Source of the DNA: Leptospiraceae bacterium
GTDB lineage: Bacteria > Spirochaetota > Leptospiria > Turneriellales > Turneriellaceae
Length of the DNA: 10,675 nucleotides
Direction: 5' to 3'
Assembly (NCBI GenBank): GCA_025057195.1
Contig: JANWWX010000022.1
Coordinates: 1 to 10,675 of the forward strand
Numbering within the stretch: the first letter of the stretch is position 1; every line of letters starts with the position of its first letter. Below the pieces are notes generated by a model. That model had not been told where the DNA came from and searched no databases. It worked only from the letters and a program-made list of their open reading frames with translations. Positions 1,031 to 9,014 of the stretch are shown piece after piece. The position numbers and the translations under genes were made by a program.

Positions 1031-2821
1031 ATGGCGAAGGCTGTTGCAGATCAGGCGCCTAAAAATGGGCCAGAGGTAGATCCAGAAAAAAATTCTTTTG
1101 TGGTGCTTTACGATTCAGCGGAGACATCCGCTAACAGCCACGAACCTCCCAGTTTAGATGAGGTCAATACGGACAACCTCCAGAGCAGCGGCTTTGCGCT
1201 CCATCCTGACGATGCCTATATCAGTGAAATACTCTCCTCAGAGGATTTGGAACCGACCGAAGCCAATATCGCAACGCAGTTTGAAGAGAGCACAGCCCTA
1301 AGCAACGAGGAGCTCGATGGCATACTCCGTATGGGGCCAGATGTTGAGGAGGAATTCCACCCGGATTTTCCGCCACCACCCCCTGACGAACCACCTGTCC
1401 CAGAACCGCCAGATCTCACAGACACGGTTGGCAGCAGCGCTGCGCCGGCGTTGGAAGTGCAGCCTTTGTCGCCGGCAGAAGAAGATGAGGAATTACCCAT
1501 TGCCATTTCCGATGAGGACTTGGATGAAATCCTTTTGGAGGAGGGGTCTGAAGGATTTGCGCAGGCCCCCTCCCCCAAAGCCCCACCAGCCACTGCCAGG
1601 CAGGAAGTCCTGCCAGATGAGGAAGAGCCGATTGCCCTTTCGGATGATGAATTGGACCACATCCTTGCCGATGCTGAAAGTGTTCCACAGGCCAGTCCAC
1701 AATGGCAGCAGGACATAGGCCATGAAGCGCCATTCGCCGGCGACGTTGGCGGGCCAGAAAGCGAAATCGTCCCACCGGCAAGCCACGATCCCAAAGGGGG
1801 CTTTTTTGATAGCGACGAGGATGAGCCCATCACGCTCACTGATGAGGAATTGGATGGTATCCTGGACACCTCGACCGAAGAGGCGCCTGCGGAAAGTGAC
1901 GAGATGGTGCTGACGGCCCCGCCTCCGCGGCCCTCCCGCATAGTCGAAGACGAGGAATCGATTACCCTCTCAGGCGACGAACTCGATGGTATTTTAGCCG
2001 ACGCAGTAGAGGCTCCGGAATTCCCTGCGACCGAAACGCCACAAGGCACAGTCGAAACAGATTTTTTTGCCAGTGATGAAGACGAACCCATCACTCTTTC
2101 AGGAGAAGAACTCGAGGGCATCCTAGCCGATGCGGTGGAGGCACCTGAACCTACCGCGGAAAGCAGCCCCGGGCAGGCACAACCCACTCTGGAATCGCCA
2201 AGCACGGCAGCAGACCAGCAGATCGCCTCAGCTGAGGATAGTGGGATTGATGCCACACAGGACTTTTTTGCCAGCGATGCTGCTGAGGATGAGCCAATCA
2301 CACTTTCCCCCGAAGAGTTGGATGGCATTTTAGCAGACGCCACACCAGAACCAACGGAAGACAGCATGTCTCCCATCCCAGCTGAGGCGGATAACCGCTA
2401 CGCCGATGTGGATGCGATGGATACGCCAGCTGGCGAAGCCAGTGCCAGTGGACAAGAGGAAGAACCTATTGCCCTATCGCCGGAAGAATTGGATGGCATT
2501 GCCGCCGACGCCCGCGAGGTTACGCCTGAAGCACACATGGTGCCTTTGTCACCATTGGATGCCGGCAGTGAACCTCCTCTTGAAGAACAAACGCAAAAGC
2601 CGGAAACGGTCTTTGAAGAGGACATCGACAACGCCACCCTGGTTCCGGAGGTGGAATCTACTGCCACAAAATCTGATACCCCGGACACCGAAGAATTGCG
2701 TTCCGTCATGAGCTATCTCGATAGCCTGCTCGGCGAGCTGCCCGACGACGTGATCGAAAAATTCGCACAGTCTGAGTATTTTAAGCTTTACCAAAAGATC
2801 ATGGAAAAGCTAGGCCTCTGA
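1031..2821 (+). CDS. acidic repeat protein with eight FliM-N-like LSxxELDxIL motifs
   Basis: The 596-residue protein is extremely rich in Glu, Asp, Pro, Ala and Ser and has no signal peptide or membrane segment, so it is probably cytoplasmic and largely disordered. Eight copies of the consensus EPITLSxEELDGILADA start (Leu of LS) at about residues 90, 159, 203, 269, 313, 356, 425 and 482, with acidic Pro/Ala-rich linkers of roughly 30-60 residues between them. Three copies follow FFDSD or DFFASD. A Pro tract (PPPPPDEPPVPEPP) lies near residue 120. The last ~45 residues differ: they are predicted helical, with SYLDSLLGELPDD, IEKFAQSEYFKLY and KIMEKLGL, resembling a C-terminal block I associate with spirochaete proteins. 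I chose ATG 1031; TTG codons in frame at 956 and 1022 would only lengthen the N-terminus with untypical sequence. The next gene begins 3 bases after the stop, implying one transcript and related function. The repeats match the CheY-binding peptide of FliM/FliY, so a scaffold role is inferred; function is otherwise unknown. Confidence 0.87.
   Translation: MAKAVADQAPKNGPEVDPEKNSFVVLYDSAETSANSHEPPSLDEVNTDNLQSSGFALHPDDAYISEILSSEDLEPTEANIATQFEESTALSNEELDGILRMGPDVEEEFHPDFPPPPPDEPPVPEPPDLTDTVGSSAAPALEVQPLSPAEEDEELPIAISDEDLDEILLEEGSEGFAQAPSPKAPPATARQEVLPDEEEPIALSDDELDHILADAESVPQASPQWQQDIGHEAPFAGDVGGPESEIVPPASHDPKGGFFDSDEDEPITLTDEELDGILDTSTEEAPAESDEMVLTAPPPRPSRIVEDEESITLSGDELDGILADAVEAPEFPATETPQGTVETDFFASDEDEPITLSGEELEGILADAVEAPEPTAESSPGQAQPTLESPSTAADQQIASAEDSGIDATQDFFASDAAEDEPITLSPEELDGILADATPEPTEDSMSPIPAEADNRYADVDAMDTPAGEASASGQEEEPIALSPEELDGIAADAREVTPEAHMVPLSPLDAGSEPPLEEQTQKPETVFEEDIDNATLVPEVESTATKSDTPDTEELRSVMSYLDSLLGELPDDVIEKFAQSEYFKLYQKIMEKLGL
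1298..2503 (+). repeat. eight-copy protein repeat, consensus LSxEELDGIL
   Basis: The ten-residue cores occupy 1298-1327 (LSNEELDGIL), 1505-1534 (ISDEDLDEIL), 1637-1666 (LSDDELDHIL), 1835-1864 (LTDEELDGIL), 1967-1996 (LSGDELDGIL), 2096-2125 (LSGEELEGIL), 2303-2332 (LSPEELDGIL) and 2474-2503 (LSPEELDGIA). Most are preceded by EPI(T/A) and several are followed by ADA. Spacing is irregular (129 to 207 bases). Synonymous codons differ widely between copies (ctc, ctt and cta for the first Leu; tca, tcg and tcc for Ser). The repeat is therefore kept at the protein level and is not a recent tandem duplication. Confidence 0.9.
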
Positions 2822-2824
2822 TGC

Positions 2825-4447
2825 ATGGGACTGCGCGAACGCGCCAGCGAATTTGCCAAAAAAAAGCAGGCTGAAGAGGGTGTCGATTTAGGGCTCGAAC
2901 TACGCCCAGAGCCTGCGCAATCGCAACAACAAACTCCAGTGCAGGAGCGCCAGCCGGCAGGCACCACAACTACTCCTGCAACCGCTGTTGCCACCAACTT
3001 TACGCCGGAGTTGGCCACGCCCAAATCAGAACCCCCGACACCATCTGATCCCGGCGAACACAAAAACCTATTCGATGCAATCCTCAATTTGATTGAACTC
3101 TACAAAGAATTCGGCTCGGTCCGCTCTGCCCAAGAATTATGGCCACTCATCGCCTACTCCCTCTTGGCCCAACTCGGCACCAAATACATTGCGATTTTTA
3201 TGGAAGACGATGGGCGTATGCAGCTGGTGCATGCCATGGGCTATGCCATGCCGCAAGACTATTCGTTTTCGGCAACGGGTAGGCTCTGCCGGACTCTACG
3301 GGAAGTGCGGCGTCCCCTCTGGCTCGAGGACGCCATCGCCGAGATGCCAGAAAACGAAGCGCGTCTATTTAACGCGCACCAAATCCGCTACGCAGTGCCG
3401 GTTTTCCGTTACGAAGAACTGCGCGGTGTCATTGCGATCAATCCGCCAGAGGGTAAAAGCCGCTTTCCGGAAGACGATCTTTTTTATTTGAAAATCTGCG
3501 GGGAAATGCTGGGTGCCATGGAAGGGCAACTCCGCCTTTTGGCCGATGCGGAGCGCAAAAAGCAACAATTAGAAAAGCTCGAGTTAGCACAACAATACCT
3601 CACTGAATTTTGCTCAGAGCTGGGCAAGTTGCCAGCCAACGCCCCGCGAGGCGAAACTTGGGATCGCCACCTCAAAAAGCATTTTCCGGGAACTAACTTA
3701 CTCATCCTGCTACGCCAAGATTTCTTTTTGCGCACAGTATTTTCTACCGGCTTTCCTGCTGAAAAGGTCCGCAACCTAGAGCTTGCACTATCAGAGCCCA
3801 TCTTGGAAAAGCTGCGTGCTGGCCAGCGTGAATTTGCCCCGGCAGATTGGGAGCCTTCAGAGTCCCTCGGTTTCTTGAGCCAATACCGCAGTGTGCACGC
3901 CTTTTTGGTAGAACACCGGGGCGAGTTGGTAGGGGTGGCCTTTTGCCAAACCCAAAACCGCGAGTTCTTGCCTGTGCTTGGCGCCATGGTGCAGAACTAT
4001 GTCCTACACCAATTGGCCGAAAGTCCTGGCATTGCGCCCGCCGAAAATCCGGTTGCTGCAATCCGCAGCGTTTTAGAGCAGTGCGAACAGGAACTCCGCC
4101 AAAAGGCGCAACCTTATGCCGTGGTGGTCACCGACATCGCCAATTACCAGCGTCTGCATAACTTGTACGGTGATGGCCATGCCGCTGCCGTTCGGGACTT
4201 CAGCCGCAAGACCTGGCACCAAATTTTGGACAAAAATGATTTCACCGTCGAGGTTTATCCAGGCCATTTTGTCTCCATACTCCGCCAAAAAGAGACTGGA
4301 GATGCCTGGCGGCTTTCCCGGATGCTACAAAAACAGGCAGGAAAGGAATTTTCTGACGAAGACCTGCGCCCGATCTTCCAACACAAAATCTATGCCAGGC
4401 CACACTTAGCAGCCATCCCCTTCGAATTGTTATTCAAAGCTGGCTAA
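2825..4447 (+). CDS. GAF-domain protein with degenerate GGDEF-like C-terminus
   Basis: This 540-residue protein has no signal peptide or membrane segment. Residues 1-20 are a basic helix (MGLRERASEFAKKKQ), and 25-80 are a Pro/Thr/Gln-rich linker. Residues about 81-235 look like a GAF domain: LIELYKEFGSVRSAQELWPLIAY is written here in two parts, LIELYKEFGS and VRSAQELWPLIAY, and a core strand VPVFRYEELRGVIAIN follows. A charged helix at about 236-262 leads to a second GAF-like region, about 265-398. Residues about 405-538 resemble a diguanylate cyclase fold, with VVTDIANYQRLHNLYGDGHA matching the family's DIDxFKxxNDxxGHxxGD block. Where the active-site loop GG(D/E)EF should be, it reads VYPGHFVSI (residues 477-485), so c-di-GMP synthesis is unlikely. 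A regulatory or protein-binding role is more plausible. ATG 2825 follows the upstream stop by 3 bases, with a weak AGG at about 2813; an ATG at 2821 is out of frame. Its fixed neighbour is the acidic repeat protein, which suggests a shared signalling pathway. Confidence 0.82.
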   Translation: MGLRERASEFAKKKQAEEGVDLGLELRPEPAQSQQQTPVQERQPAGTTTTPATAVATNFTPELATPKSEPPTPSDPGEHKNLFDAILNLIELYKEFGSVRSAQELWPLIAYSLLAQLGTKYIAIFMEDDGRMQLVHAMGYAMPQDYSFSATGRLCRTLREVRRPLWLEDAIAEMPENEARLFNAHQIRYAVPVFRYEELRGVIAINPPEGKSRFPEDDLFYLKICGEMLGAMEGQLRLLADAERKKQQLEKLELAQQYLTEFCSELGKLPANAPRGETWDRHLKKHFPGTNLLILLRQDFFLRTVFSTGFPAEKVRNLELALSEPILEKLRAGQREFAPADWEPSESLGFLSQYRSVHAFLVEHRGELVGVAFCQTQNREFLPVLGAMVQNYVLHQLAESPGIAPAENPVAAIRSVLEQCEQELRQKAQPYAVVVTDIANYQRLHNLYGDGHAAAVRDFSRKTWHQILDKNDFTVEVYPGHFVSILRQKETGDAWRLSRMLQKQAGKEFSDEDLRPIFQHKIYARPHLAAIPFELLFKAG

Positions 4448-4519: not shown

Positions 4520-5812
4520 GTGCTCGCCCAATCCCTGCTGGCCTATATCCTGTTTCTGGATAGTTACGAGACGCAGACTTTAGGTAGCACCCTACAGGCA
4601 AAACAAAACGAAGCGCGCACCTATACATTACCACAGATCGTTAGCCGTGCCGAGGAAACTAGCGAACTTTTGCGTGCACAACGGCTCAAGGTAGCAAGCA
4701 CTGAGGCACAGGGACGCCAGGCGCGTGCCTGGCAAAACCCATCGCTCTCAGCAGAATTGGGCCGCCTGCGCGACACCCAAAATAACGCCATGACGTACGA
4801 TTTCCGGATCACACAGCCGCTCTTTTTTCCCGGAAAACTTGCCAAGCAATATGAAATCTACCAGCGTGAGAAGGATTTTTTGGAGCTCGAGGCATTGGAT
4901 CTGCAAAACATCATAAAATTGGAGGCTTCGTACTATGCTTACGCCTATTTCATCGCCGAACTCAAATCGCGCACAATCACAAGCCGCATCGAACGCATCT
5001 CGCTCATGCGCACATACATGCGCGCGCAGGCATTCGCCTCTCCTGCAAAAATTGTCCAGCGGAATATTGTCTCAAACCAACTCATCGCGCTGCAAAAGAG
5101 CTTAAATGCTTCTTTAGCGGAGGCCGAGAGTTCGTGGCAAAGGCTCAATATCTATCTCAACGAGCCGCAGAAGATTGAATTGCAGCTGAGCTGGCTTACG
5201 GGACTACGCGATATCGATCGGGAAAAATTCCTGGCGAAGGTTAAAGCCGGAAACCGTCGGCTAAAGTCACGCCGTCTACTTTTAGCACGCCTGGAAGCAG
5301 AGTTGGCCTACCAGAAAAGCGTGCCGCTGCCTGATGTCAGCATCACTGCTTTTTACCGCCGTGAGGCACTTGAAATCCCCGGTGCCAACCAATTTTACGG
5401 TGGTGCGGTCAATATTCCATTACCGCTAGTCAACACCAACCGCGCAGGGATCGAGGCGGCCGAAAAGCGCCTGGAGGCAGCGCGCGCCGAGTCCGAATTT
5501 ACGGAACGCGAGATCATGCAGACCGCCAACGCGGTCCATGCCGAATACTCACAAAAGCGCAAGCTTTTGGCTGACTTCCATGCCGAACAAATCCCGAAAT
5601 TGGAACAACAGATGCGCTACGCCGACCGAGAGCTCAAATTGGGCCGGATTGACCTGCTTTCGTATTTGGAACTCGAACTGCAAACACACGAAGCAATCCA
5701 AGCTTTTTACGATAACCAACTGGAGTTAGTGCGGGCGATCACCCAGATGATCCATCTTATGGGAGAAAGCGTAGAGTATAACGGGGATCTCTATGTTGTT
5801 CAAGTGGATTGA
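4520..5812 (+). CDS. TolC/CzcC-family outer-membrane efflux channel
   Basis: The 430-residue product is an outer-membrane efflux protein that, as a trimer, would form the exit duct of an RND pump. It shows the internal duplication of the family: a first half with WQNPSLSAELG (71-81) leading to FRITQPLFFPGK, and a second half with PLPDVSITAFY (269-279) followed by YGGAVNIPLPLVNTNRAGI (293-311). Long helical stretches follow each, with Ala- and Glu-rich heptads such as EAAEKRLEAARAESEF, and GRIDLLSYLELELQ sits near the end, as in CzcC-type proteins. The length is normal for the family. I chose GTG 4520 because an in-frame TGA lies at 4496. The N-terminus MLAQSLLAYILFLDSYETQT is a short hydrophobic stretch without the usual basic residues of a signal peptide. 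A CTG start at 4499 would add LAEKNCT with one Lys, so the start is uncertain. It overlaps the RND pump gene by 20 bases. Confidence 0.85.
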   Translation: MLAQSLLAYILFLDSYETQTLGSTLQAKQNEARTYTLPQIVSRAEETSELLRAQRLKVASTEAQGRQARAWQNPSLSAELGRLRDTQNNAMTYDFRITQPLFFPGKLAKQYEIYQREKDFLELEALDLQNIIKLEASYYAYAYFIAELKSRTITSRIERISLMRTYMRAQAFASPAKIVQRNIVSNQLIALQKSLNASLAEAESSWQRLNIYLNEPQKIELQLSWLTGLRDIDREKFLAKVKAGNRRLKSRRLLLARLEAELAYQKSVPLPDVSITAFYRREALEIPGANQFYGGAVNIPLPLVNTNRAGIEAAEKRLEAARAESEFTEREIMQTANAVHAEYSQKRKLLADFHAEQIPKLEQQMRYADRELKLGRIDLLSYLELELQTHEAIQAFYDNQLELVRAITQMIHLMGESVEYNGDLYVVQVD

Positions 5813-8800
5813 GTGGGCACTCCATAACCGTAGCCTGGTCTTGGGCGTTGTTTTTGTCCTCTGCGTCGCTGGGTTTTACTCTGCACTACACTTGCCGATC
5901 GATGCCGTGCCCGACATTACCAACGTGCAGTCGATGATCATCACCAAAACGGGCGCGCTCGATCCGCAAAAGGTTGAATCGACCGTAACCTACGTCATCG
6001 AAACTGAGCTGCAGGGCATCCCACGGGTTGAGGAGATCCGCTCCATTTCCAAATATGGCCTGTCCCAAATCACCGTCGTCTTTGAAGAGGGCACCAACAT
6101 CTATTTAGCACGGCAGCAAATTAGTGAACGCTTAAACCAAGTGCGAGATAGCCTACCTGCAGGGATTGTCCCCGAGCTCGCTCCGCTTTCCACTGGTTTG
6201 GGCGAGGTATTTTTTTATGTCGTTGAGGCCAAACCGGGTAGCGAGCTTGCCAAGAAACCCGAAAAAGAGAGATTGATTTACCTGCGCACGGTGCAGGACT
6301 ATATTATCAAGCGGCAACTAAAAGGTATCACGGGTGTGGCCGACGTTGACACCTTCGGTGGCTATCCCAAAGAAATCCACATCAACCTCGACACCAGGAA
6401 ACTTGAACAGCATGGCCTGACCATCGAACAAGTTTCGGAGCGTCTTAACACGCTGGGCGAAAACTACGGCGGTGGCTACATCCAACGCGAAGGCCGCCAA
6501 ATTGTGATCCGTACCCTTGGCCGCGTCACCGATCTCGACAAGATCCGCAAGGTGCCCATCAAGCGTTCCTTTTTTGGCACCCCAGTAAGGCTTGGTGAAA
6601 TTTGCACCGTCACAATCCACCACCCACAACCCCTCGGCGGGGCCACCTACCGCGGCGAGGAAGCCGTCATTGGCATGCCGATGATGCTTGCCGGTGCCAA
6701 CAGCCGTAACGTGGCTGCGGCGTTGAACGAGGCTGTCAAAGACCTCGACCTGCCGCAGGATGTGCAGGTGCGCGTGCTCTACTCTCGCGACTACCTAGTC
6801 AATGCCACCATCAAAACTGTGTTCAAAAATCTGGCCGAAGGTGCGGGCTTTGTCGTCATCATCCTCCTTTTGATCCTGGGCAACATCCGCGCTGCGGTTC
6901 TGGTCTCGTTGGCGATTCCCATCTCGATGCTGATGGCCGTGATCGGCATGCAGTATTTCCAAGTCTCGGGCAATCTAATGAGTTTGGGAGCGATCGACTT
7001 CGGCCTTTTGGTCGATGGCTCGGTGGTCATGTTTGAAAACATCATCCGGCGTATGGAGGCATACGACAATTCTCTGCCCCTCGCCGGGGAGCGCAAGCGC
7101 CAGTTGATCCTTGTCTCTGCCAAAGAGGTGTTGCGGCCGATCACCACCGCACTCCTCATCATCATGGGTGTCTTCTTGCCGCTTTTTGCACTGGAAGGTG
7201 TCGAGGGGAGGATGTTCCGCCCGATGGCGCAGACCGTGCTTTTGGCACTTGGCTCAAGCCTACTTCTGGCAATTGTCCTGATGCCGGTTTTGGGCTATCT
7301 ATTCTTGCGCGTTCGGAAAGATCGCCACGACCACACACCGCGCATCCTGCGCTACATCCTCACTGGCTATGCTCCGCTTCTGCGGTTTGTATTGAAAAAA
7401 CCGACGGCGATCATCGTCGCTACCCTGCTTTTGACTGTGGTCTCTGTGATCCTCTTTTTGCGCATGGGTGGTGATTTTATCCCGCAGCTCAACGAAGGGG
7501 ACATGGTGATCAACTTCAGCCGCCCGGTGGAAGCGAGTTTTGACAAAATACTCGCCATGCAAAAGAAATCGGAAAAAATCCTGCTGACTTTCCCCGAAGT
7601 CAAAGAAGTGTATAGCCGCTTTGGCACACCACAATCTGCCGTGGATCCAGCAGGGATTTTTTTCTCAGATACTTTCATCATTTTGGAAAAAGACCTGTCC
7701 AAATGGCGGCGCCGCGCAGGGCGCACTATCACTAAAGAAGAGCTTTATCAAGAAATGGTCGAGGCACTTGCCGCTGACCCGGAATTAAAAGAACAAGAAC
7801 CCTCTCCGACACAACCCATCCAGATGCGTTTCAACGAAATGCTCGAGGGTTCGCGTGCCGATGTCACCATGCGCATTTACGGCACCGATTTGGATAAGCT
7901 GGCAGAAATTGTCGCACAAGGACGCCGCATTATTGAAAAAATGAAGGGTGTCGTCAGCGTGCAGTCGGATCCTATCATTGCCCTGAATAAGAGTCCTGTG
8001 CTCGATATTGAGCTCAACTACGATGCCATTTCGTACTATGGGCTTGATCTCGCCGATGTCAACCGTGTGGTCGAAATGGCGATGAGTGGCAACCGCATCG
8101 GCAATTTGTACGAGGGGGCGTACCGCTTCCCAATTGTCACGCGCCTTGACCCTAGGCTCCGCAACGACGTCGAACAGATCCGTAAAATCCCGGTCGGTTT
8201 GGATGCAGGTGGCAGCGTGCCACTCTATAAAGTAGCAACTATCACCGAGCGCGAGCAAACCACCACCATTGCGCGCAGCCAAGGACGACGTTATGCAGCG
8301 CTCTCGATCAACCTGGGTGACACCGATATTGAGCGTTTTGTCAAAAATGCACAGGCGGAAATCAGCCGTCAGATCCAACTACCCGAGTTTTATGAAATCA
8401 CCTGGGGCGGGCAATTCAAAAACCTGCAGCGCGCTAAAACCCGTTTGGCGATCATTGTGCCTTTGACCCTGCTTGCGATTTTCTTGATGCTCATGCGCTA
8501 CTTTGGCCAGGCCAAGCAGTCGCTTTTGGTCTTCATGGGCATCCCCACAGCAGTGATCGGCGGTGTGTTCACGCTGAGTGTGGTCGGGATGAATTTCAGC
8601 ATTTCTGCCGGTGTTGGTTTTATTGCACTCATGGGCATTGCAATCCTCAATAGCCTGGTATTGGTGACCCACTACGACGAACTGCGCCGGCAACAACCCA
8701 ACCGCCCTGTGCTGCAGCTGGTCGAGGAAGGCACGCTCGACCGCTTCCGCCCAGTGGTGATCACCACCCTCGTTGCTGGCTTAGGCTTCCTGCCAATGGC

Positions 8801-9014
8801 AGTCAACACTGGCTTGGGCGCCGAAGTGCAAAAACCACTGGCGACTGTCGTCATTGGTGGCCTCATCATCGCCACCATGCTGACCGCATTCCTATTGCCG
8901 GCACTTTATGTGATGCTTTTTGGCCGTGCCCAAACCCAGCCCGCCGCACCTCCACCGGCACCGAAACCACGCCCAGAATCCATTCCACAGCCAAAATCGA
9001 GAAAGAGGAATTAA
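5793..9014 (+). CDS. czcA: CzcA-type heavy-metal RND efflux pump
   Basis: This 1073-residue inner-membrane proton antiporter belongs to the heavy-metal efflux RND family and exports metal cations through the outer-membrane channel. The architecture is complete: TM1 at about 14-34, first periplasmic porter region ~35-340, TM2-TM6 ~345-505, TM7 ~537-557, second porter region ~560-880 and TM8-TM12 ~885-1045. Family signatures include LPIDAVPDITNVQ (34-46), DFGLLVDGSVVMFEN in TM4 (402-416, with Asp402, Asp408 and Glu415), DFIPQLNEGD (561-570), ITWGGQFKNLQRAKTRL (869-885) and GFIALMGIAILNSLV (942-956). The DFG-VDG-EN pattern is that of CzcA-like pumps for divalent cations such as Co, Zn, Cd or Ni, not the CusA-like copper/silver pattern. 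The exact metal cannot be told. ATG 5793 is preceded by GGGGAT at about 5783-5788, inside the upstream gene, so translation is probably coupled. The C-terminal tail from 1049 is Pro-rich then basic (PKSRKRN). No adaptor gene is adjacent. Confidence 0.93.
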   Translation: MLFKWIEWALHNRSLVLGVVFVLCVAGFYSALHLPIDAVPDITNVQSMIITKTGALDPQKVESTVTYVIETELQGIPRVEEIRSISKYGLSQITVVFEEGTNIYLARQQISERLNQVRDSLPAGIVPELAPLSTGLGEVFFYVVEAKPGSELAKKPEKERLIYLRTVQDYIIKRQLKGITGVADVDTFGGYPKEIHINLDTRKLEQHGLTIEQVSERLNTLGENYGGGYIQREGRQIVIRTLGRVTDLDKIRKVPIKRSFFGTPVRLGEICTVTIHHPQPLGGATYRGEEAVIGMPMMLAGANSRNVAAALNEAVKDLDLPQDVQVRVLYSRDYLVNATIKTVFKNLAEGAGFVVIILLLILGNIRAAVLVSLAIPISMLMAVIGMQYFQVSGNLMSLGAIDFGLLVDGSVVMFENIIRRMEAYDNSLPLAGERKRQLILVSAKEVLRPITTALLIIMGVFLPLFALEGVEGRMFRPMAQTVLLALGSSLLLAIVLMPVLGYLFLRVRKDRHDHTPRILRYILTGYAPLLRFVLKKPTAIIVATLLLTVVSVILFLRMGGDFIPQLNEGDMVINFSRPVEASFDKILAMQKKSEKILLTFPEVKEVYSRFGTPQSAVDPAGIFFSDTFIILEKDLSKWRRRAGRTITKEELYQEMVEALAADPELKEQEPSPTQPIQMRFNEMLEGSRADVTMRIYGTDLDKLAEIVAQGRRIIEKMKGVVSVQSDPIIALNKSPVLDIELNYDAISYYGLDLADVNRVVEMAMSGNRIGNLYEGAYRFPIVTRLDPRLRNDVEQIRKIPVGLDAGGSVPLYKVATITEREQTTTIARSQGRRYAALSINLGDTDIERFVKNAQAEISRQIQLPEFYEITWGGQFKNLQRAKTRLAIIVPLTLLAIFLMLMRYFGQAKQSLLVFMGIPTAVIGGVFTLSVVGMNFSISAGVGFIALMGIAILNSLVLVTHYDELRRQQPNRPVLQLVEEGTLDRFRPVVITTLVAGLGFLPMAVNTGLGAEVQKPLATVVIGGLIIATMLTAFLLPALYVMLFGRAQTQPAAPPPAPKPRPESIPQPKSRKRN

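Follow-up and report, generated by a model that had tools for sequence, protein, structure and literature searches.

How spirochaetes coordinate the motors at their two cell ends has long been asked. The window analysed here, the whole 10,675-nucleotide stretch of DNA, encodes a protein, C1, in which a peptide resembling the N-terminal peptide of FliM (FliM-N) recurs eight times, and it raises the question of what such motor-like peptides might capture when they are carried off the motor. A first-pass annotation had proposed that the repeats could dock phosphorylated CheY, other response regulators or another protein that binds FliM-N-like peptides. We found that the repeat observation is right and is part of a larger pattern than the window alone shows.

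Eight repeats in an acidic, disordered protein

The C1 gene contains the following features.

1031..2821, forward strand: C1, repeat protein of 596 residues from the ATG at 1031 (open reading frame, composition, AlphaFold2)
1298..1327, forward strand: repeat 1, LSNEELDGIL, lacking an acidic flank of the PI type
1505..1534, forward strand: repeat 2, ISDEDLDEIL
1637..1666, forward strand: repeat 3, LSDDELDHIL, flank DEEEPIA
1835..1864, forward strand: repeat 4, LTDEELDGIL, full flank GGFFDSDEDEPIT
1967..1996, forward strand: repeat 5, LSGDELDGIL
2096..2125, forward strand: repeat 6, LSGEELEGIL, flank FFASDEDEPIT
2303..2332, forward strand: repeat 7, LSPEELDGIL
2474..2503, forward strand: repeat 8, LSPEELDGIA
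2687..2812, forward strand: C-terminal three-helix domain of C1, residues 553–594 (alignment A1; block pLDDT 79–87)

All eight ten-residue cores share the C1 frame and together run exactly from 1298 to 2503, the span given in the first-pass annotation. The core pattern, which was composed after the repeats had been seen, occurs eight times in C1 and not once in any of 2000 shuffles of it. The consensus LSxxELDxIL proposed for the core holds in general, with four exceptions: in repeat 2 Ile comes first and Asp replaces Glu, repeat 4 has Thr where Ser is expected, core position 7 of repeat 6 is Glu instead of Asp, and the last residue of repeat 8 is Ala.

C1 is acidic (Asp 10.7%, Glu 15.4%), and its AlphaFold2 model, with a mean pLDDT of 45.6, is mostly disordered, in keeping with the earlier description of an acidic, probably disordered protein. 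Outside the C-terminal domain the model stays at disorder level, and the single match returned by a fold search (E 9.8) is meaningless given that mean pLDDT. A Pfam search of all 596 residues at E up to 1 gave no match, the FliM middle domain (PF02154) and FliMN_C (PF01052) included, and an NCBIfam search gave nothing meaningful; neither database assigns the repeats to some other family whose function is known, one of the two outcomes that had been named as contrary to the docking proposal. The model draws repeats 1, 2, 3, 5 and 8, at low confidence, as short helices beginning at core position 3. FliM residues 8–15 are helical (PMC7012829), and the predicted register of these five C1 helices matches that segment.

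The C1 family and its extended motif

A search found 111 proteins of the C1 family, the window's own counted in, with source-named homologues in Turneriella, Leptospira and other spirochaetes. C1 and nearly all homologues carry a precomputed Pfam label, PF27359; in the limited collection of literature searched, no paper names PF27359, and none of the papers listed describes the family. The constant part of the family is the C-terminal region of about 45 residues, in which L49, P50, F57, S60, Y62, Y66 and L73 are invariant across the 17 rows of alignment A1. With A1 as the query, this domain was detected in 272 of the 392 genomes sampled from the spirochaete phylum. We then read 61 loci, 59 of which have C1 (L060 was chosen as a fliM locus, and L185 is without C1), and in these the family is built of the C-terminal three-helix domain and 0–10 motif copies.

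The repeats of the window are versions of a longer motif, approximately FFx(D/E)nExI[AT]L[ST]x[DE]EL[DN][NG]IL. A pattern that restricts six core positions and demands an acidic upstream flank counts 100 copies in 39 loci, three motif-like sites without the acidic flank being excluded. At the positions left unrestricted, with loci weighted equally, Ile at −2 reaches 95%, Asp or Glu at 4 reaches 88%, Glu at −4 82%, Asn at 8 71% and Phe at −10 39%; Asp at −5 reaches 73%, but within the flank where the pattern demanded acidity. Treponema-type genomes usually have a single copy (DETIALTGDELDNIL) and Leptospira-type genomes several, up to ten in L057, so the motif is widespread and has been multiplied in the lineage of the window.

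Twenty of the 59 C1 loci have no counted copy; among these, a contig end cuts L056, L058 and L191, and near variants occur in L052, L053, L058, L175 and L179. The canonical motif is absent from the C1 proteins read in families f10, f12, f14, f23, f31, f39, f41 and f46, seven of which (f10, f12, f23, f31, f39, f41 and f46) are flagellate. Eight aligned proteins from f12, f23, f31, f39, f41 and f46 share an alternative block, approximately IDLxEAExIAxEDILxLTEEDLIEEL, and the C1 proteins of f29 and f36 carry the variant ISI[ND]GNDLD[KR][VI]I.

Other elements were seen by eye in some relatives. In the Treponema class (L154, L158, L159, L163–L165, L168, L171, L180, L181 and L184), several C1 proteins have an N-terminal YGVWVKxxPxD-like element, and some have a coiled-coil-like IAxELxSIKxELxxLK beside the motif and the C-terminal domain. 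The C1 relative of genome G027 (L230, 1–624) is truncated by its contig and shows a different tandem repeat, of the DDPEGLDLSR type, in its visible part; the 208 residues visible before the contig end hold no copy of the motif.

The motif core resembles FliM-N and the flanks do not

The FliM of the window's own genome starts MTDILSQDEIDQLL (L060, L042), and the core register with the FliM N-terminus that the first-pass annotation had pointed out is upheld by a matrix comparison. We built a core matrix from the 100 motif copies of the 39 loci and scanned 227,300 residues of non-C1 open reading frames in the fetched loci. A score of at least 8.7 was reached by 23 of 26 FliM N-termini and by 3 of 221,115 other windows; the remaining FliM N-termini scored 6.2–6.5 (two) and −1.3 (one), and three FliY-like N-termini scored 6.2, where the background is about 1 in 10,000. 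Because the 26 FliM proteins are related and were fetched on purpose (20 of the 23 high scorers have the core LSQDEID[QA]LL), the useful figure is the background rate for a single site specified in advance, about 1.4 in 100,000. When the flanks are added to the matrix, FliM no longer stands out from the background, and the conserved C1 flanks (FF, DEDExI) are absent from FliM.

C1 and FliM-N of FliM/FliY share the core L-S-x-[DE]-E-aliphatic-D-x-aliphatic-L in register, but C1 has up to ten copies in a long disordered protein whereas FliM has one at the N-terminus of a motor protein. C1 also has Leu for Ile at position 6 and Ile for Leu at position 9, has conserved FF and acidic flanks, and has neither the Gln8 of FliM nor, in our searches, the FliM domains.

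In the E. coli CheY–FliM complex, as tabulated in Table 3 of PMC3774744, FliM L6, I11 and L14 contact CheY hydrophobically, D12 pairs with CheY K119 and Q8 touches the V108 backbone. The equivalents of L6, I11 and L14 are aliphatic in all 100 motif copies bar one Phe, at positions that the selecting pattern itself fixed; within those restrictions, core position 1 is Leu in 99 and Ile in 1, position 6 Leu in 95 and Met in 5, and position 9 Ile in 90, Leu in 9 and Phe in 1. The equivalent of D12, core position 7, is kept in part (Asp 56, Asn 13 and Glu 10 of 100). FliM Gln8 is not kept: Gln falls outside the eight commonest residues at core position 3 (G 34, D 23, E 8, A 8, S 7, P 6, N 5 and T 3 of 100).

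CheY docking is the best single reading of this core, although we put it at somewhat below an even chance. It is favoured by the core register above background, by the equivalents of the hydrophobic contacts and by the helix register modelled at low confidence. It also gains from genus g14, where FliM-N itself comes near the C1 consensus EL.N[IL]L (LDDAELSNLL in G021, IANEELQNIL in G023 and IEDSELSNLL in G036), CheW is present and C1 retains motif copies. The foreign flanks count against it.

The acidic low-complexity context, a copy number that runs from 0 to 10 and an AlphaFold2 model with no fold beyond the C-terminal domain would also suit generic acidic amphipathic helices, serving as spacers or weak condensate stickers, that resemble FliM-N by chance. 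We consider this improbable, since distant genomes preserve single copies together with their defined flanks, and since both the background of 3 windows in 221,115 and the shuffles of C1 speak for a specific core.

The g14 sequences (L046, L048 and L212) are also of note as FliM-N peptides, since they depart from LSQDEIDALL and end in ELxN[IL]L despite the presence of CheW. In G024, FliM-N was not seen in the stretch fetched.

A GAF-containing partner gene follows C1

A second gene, C0, starts 3 bases past the C1 stop codon.

2825..4447, forward strand: C0, partner gene of 540 residues, with an N-terminal helix, two GAF-like domains and a degenerate GGDEF domain
2831..2875, forward strand: N-terminal helix of C0, residues 3–17, with a conserved MGLxEKA start
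4073..4333, forward strand: degenerate GGDEF region of C0 (sub-cut-off Pfam match; YPGHF at the expected site by eye)

Pfam gives a GAF match in C0 and a GGDEF match that, at 12.5 bits, falls below the cut-off of 23.8. The GGDEF active-site signature is not kept, as judged by eye, and YPGHF stands in its place, which suggests a regulatory rather than a catalytic role. The AlphaFold2 model (mean pLDDT 80.8) has an N-terminal helix, two alpha/beta domains and then a third domain, and from the Pfam and PDB matches we read the three as probable GAF, GAF and GGDEF. C0 is like the bacteriophytochrome-activated diguanylate cyclases in that its six best PDB matches in Foldseek are chains of 6et7, 5llx and 5llw at probability 1.00; unlike them it lacks the kept signature and has no phytochrome match in Pfam, and the six query-normalised TM-scores lie at 0.25–0.38.

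Of the 59 C1 loci, 32 have a C0 match next to C1 and on its strand, made up of 17 of the 19 C1-bearing loci in the first set of relatives, the window, and 14 of 39 later loci. In the Treponema class, C1 is often followed by a short MGL-starting protein that gives no match to the C0 profile, bar a weak one in L172. Given that any C0 match adjoins C1 in this way, the motif could dock C0 itself in a closed two-protein module. We regard this as highly improbable: 20 of the 39 motif-bearing loci are without a C0 match, and in many of these the short MGL-starting protein follows C1; no motif was counted in 13 of the loci that do have C0; and the C-terminal domain of C1 would be the better candidate for contact with C0.

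C1 lies beside flagellar genes in several clades

The gene order C1–C0–C2–fliM, with near-touching genes, occurs in nine loci (L051–L059), which were fetched for the C1–fliM linkage seen in 10 of 17 genomes of the same family or order (G001–G017). The window's own genome, 1.38 Mb and 54% complete, has C2–fliM on a separate contig (L060). Genes of an MptE-like cluster, of a kind resembling flagellin-modification genes, are present in 19 of the 61 loci, two apiece in 16 and mostly in the Treponema class; the assignment comes from a Pfam run on four proteins of the cluster, all of which matched. One MptE-like protein matches the flagellin-modification protein PseD at 2e-26, far below the cut-off. 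In L175 fliS precedes C1, and in L065 fapA follows C0. In the f5, f6, f23, f41 and f46 loci read, ATP-synthase genes precede C1 (by eye, one confirmed), so flagellar adjacency is not universal.

C1 is found in 258 of 337 FliM-positive and in 14 of 55 FliM-negative genomes, counts drawn from related and not independent genomes. Twelve of the 14 C1-bearing FliM-negative genomes keep FliG_C or FlhA, and many are fragmented drafts. We therefore do not take co-presence as proof: the kinship of the genomes and the drafts with FliG_C or FlhA leave the count supportive only. Genomes that do not appear among the C1 or CheW matches listed were counted as lacking them, and their families were assigned on that basis. 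FliM and CheW occur in each of the 36 f38 genomes sampled and C1 in none, and four genomes (G050, G069, G096 and G102) have a C1 match and no CheW match.

In three families the full motif is missing where flagellum or switch is lost or reduced

In family f49, matches to FliM, FliG_C, CheW and C1 are all absent from the 36 sampled genomes. In family f50, G361 and G370 have no match to FliM, FliG_C or FlhA; CheW has three matches in G361 and none in G370. Their C1 proteins are 212 and 206 residues long: that of G361 is without the motif, and that of G370 has only VSPEELEGLL, with no flank, though FliM, FliG_C, FlhA and CheW are all absent there. G307, a flagellate member of f50, carries the complete motif.

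The third case is genus g94 of family f45, in which FlhA is strong, FliG_C weaker and CheW not found. In G171, G265 and G316, FliM matches are weak (E 5e-9 to 2e-11) and the FliM frame opens shortly before the middle domain, without the N-terminal peptide; no FliM-like core was found nearby on that strand. In place of C1 these genomes have a motif-less 92-residue open reading frame with YGVWIK and part of the C-terminal domain, weak matches (E 0.006–0.010) backed by neighbours shared with G237. In the g94 genome G237, C1 has 207 residues and no copy of the motif, and FliM gives no match. G297, also of family f45, combines a canonical FliM-N with motif copies in C1. In g94, a single clade, the C1 motif and FliM-N are thus jointly absent. 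In G265, FliM is followed by FliO, FliP and a FliR-family gene. Across G171, G265 and G316 (L206–L208, L229), FlhA, FliO, FliP and a FliR-family gene were seen with no CheW match; these genomes apparently have either a motor that lacks a chemotactic switch or just the export apparatus.

A role of the C1 family in the flagellar system is supported by the gene neighbourhood together with these losses in three families. The losses follow CheW less well. G079 (75% complete) has a FliM match at E 7e-62, with the FliM gene not located within the 1.6 Mb read, and no CheW match; its C1, a 318-residue open frame, keeps two motif copies, EDISLTKSELDEII and ETVALSGNELDNLI, so the motif can persist where CheW alone is lost. 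A canonical FliM-N is found in G050 and G027, which give no CheW match, so a missing CheW match may not mean a missing CheY. A missing CheW was therefore ruled out, by G079, G050 and G027, as a proxy for a missing CheY. Taken together with G361, these genomes indicate that presence of the motif goes with the flagellum and its switch, not with the chemosensory array. FliM without a CheW match was seen in the single-contig genomes G079 and G050, and in G027.

The co-loss pattern fits any partner that travels with the flagellar switch. The motif could dock another flagellar or assembly protein, of the C-ring, export, flagellin-modification or chaperone kind, with the likeness to FliM-N reflecting a shared helix type and not a shared receptor. 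We consider this a serious possibility, if a clear minority one: the motif follows the flagellum better than CheW (G079, G361), fliM, MptE-like genes, fliS and fapA are among the neighbours, and the conserved flanks are unlike those of FliM, but the core is like FliM-N at the contact positions, and FliM-N and the motif are jointly missing in g94.

For CheY docking, the same neighbours (fliM, MptE-like genes, fliS and fapA), the losses in f49, f50 and g94 and the g14 likeness argue in favour. Against it stand the two copies in G079 without a CheW match, G361 with CheW but neither flagellar marker nor motif, the VSPEELEGLL of G370 despite missing FliM and CheW, the seven flagellate families without the canonical motif, and f38 with FliM and CheW but no C1. 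The FliM-N-like docking first proposed is partly supported, by the core register, the aliphatic contact equivalents and the flagellar tie through neighbours and co-loss; what does not fit is the lost Gln8, Asp12 kept in 56 of 100 copies, the flanks foreign to FliM, G079, and the several flagellate clades whose C1 is without the motif.

A candidate off-motor docking hub

The FliM-N-like copies in C1, and the relatives that lie beside flagellar genes, suggest that C1 may be an off-motor docking hub. C1 would be a flagellum-associated spirochaete scaffold, probably cytoplasmic, with the C-terminal three-helix domain as its constant part and a disordered body that carries one to ten FliM-N-like motifs in most loci read. 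Many clades encode it together with C0, a GAF–GAF protein with an inactive-looking diguanylate-cyclase domain. In the likeliest mechanism, each motif would form a short helix docked to the face of a CheY-type receiver that FliM binds, and C1 might then concentrate, buffer or relay phosphorylated CheY off the motor. In its most specific form, which we hold to be rather unlikely as a whole, C1 is in most spirochaetes an off-motor array of FliM-N mimics that multivalently captures phosphorylated CheY and sets or synchronises the signal to the motors at both cell ends, an array adjusted through the number of repeats and through the GAF partner in those genomes that have one.

Being present in 272 of 392 genomes, tied to the flagellum and equipped with motor-like peptides off the motor, C1 would be a directly testable candidate for motor coordination. 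Even with a ligand other than CheY, C1 remains a flagellar accessory protein of wide distribution that has been little described and has a clear docking motif.

The polar hubs FimV, HubP and TspA are long acidic proteins with repeats. C1 is like them as a long acidic repeat protein, a likeness of composition, and some C1 homologues are automatically named 'pilus assembly protein FimV'. Pfam and NCBIfam gave no match in C1 to LysM or to a FimV-type C-terminal domain, and no membrane segment is evident by eye; membership of the FimV/HubP group was dropped for want of a domain match.

Other genes of the window

Upstream of C1 and divergent from it, a 180-residue open reading frame on the reverse strand (354–896) probably contains membrane segments, as judged by eye, and gave nothing meaningful in Pfam or NCBIfam. 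Three genes lie 3′ of C0, coding for an outer-membrane efflux protein, a CusA/CzcA-type RND pump and a GH31 glucosidase, and none of them clustered with any gene in the loci of 20 relatives. Within 4520–9014, with no membrane-fusion protein gene between them, the efflux protein gene overlaps the start of the gene for the CusA/CzcA-family pump.
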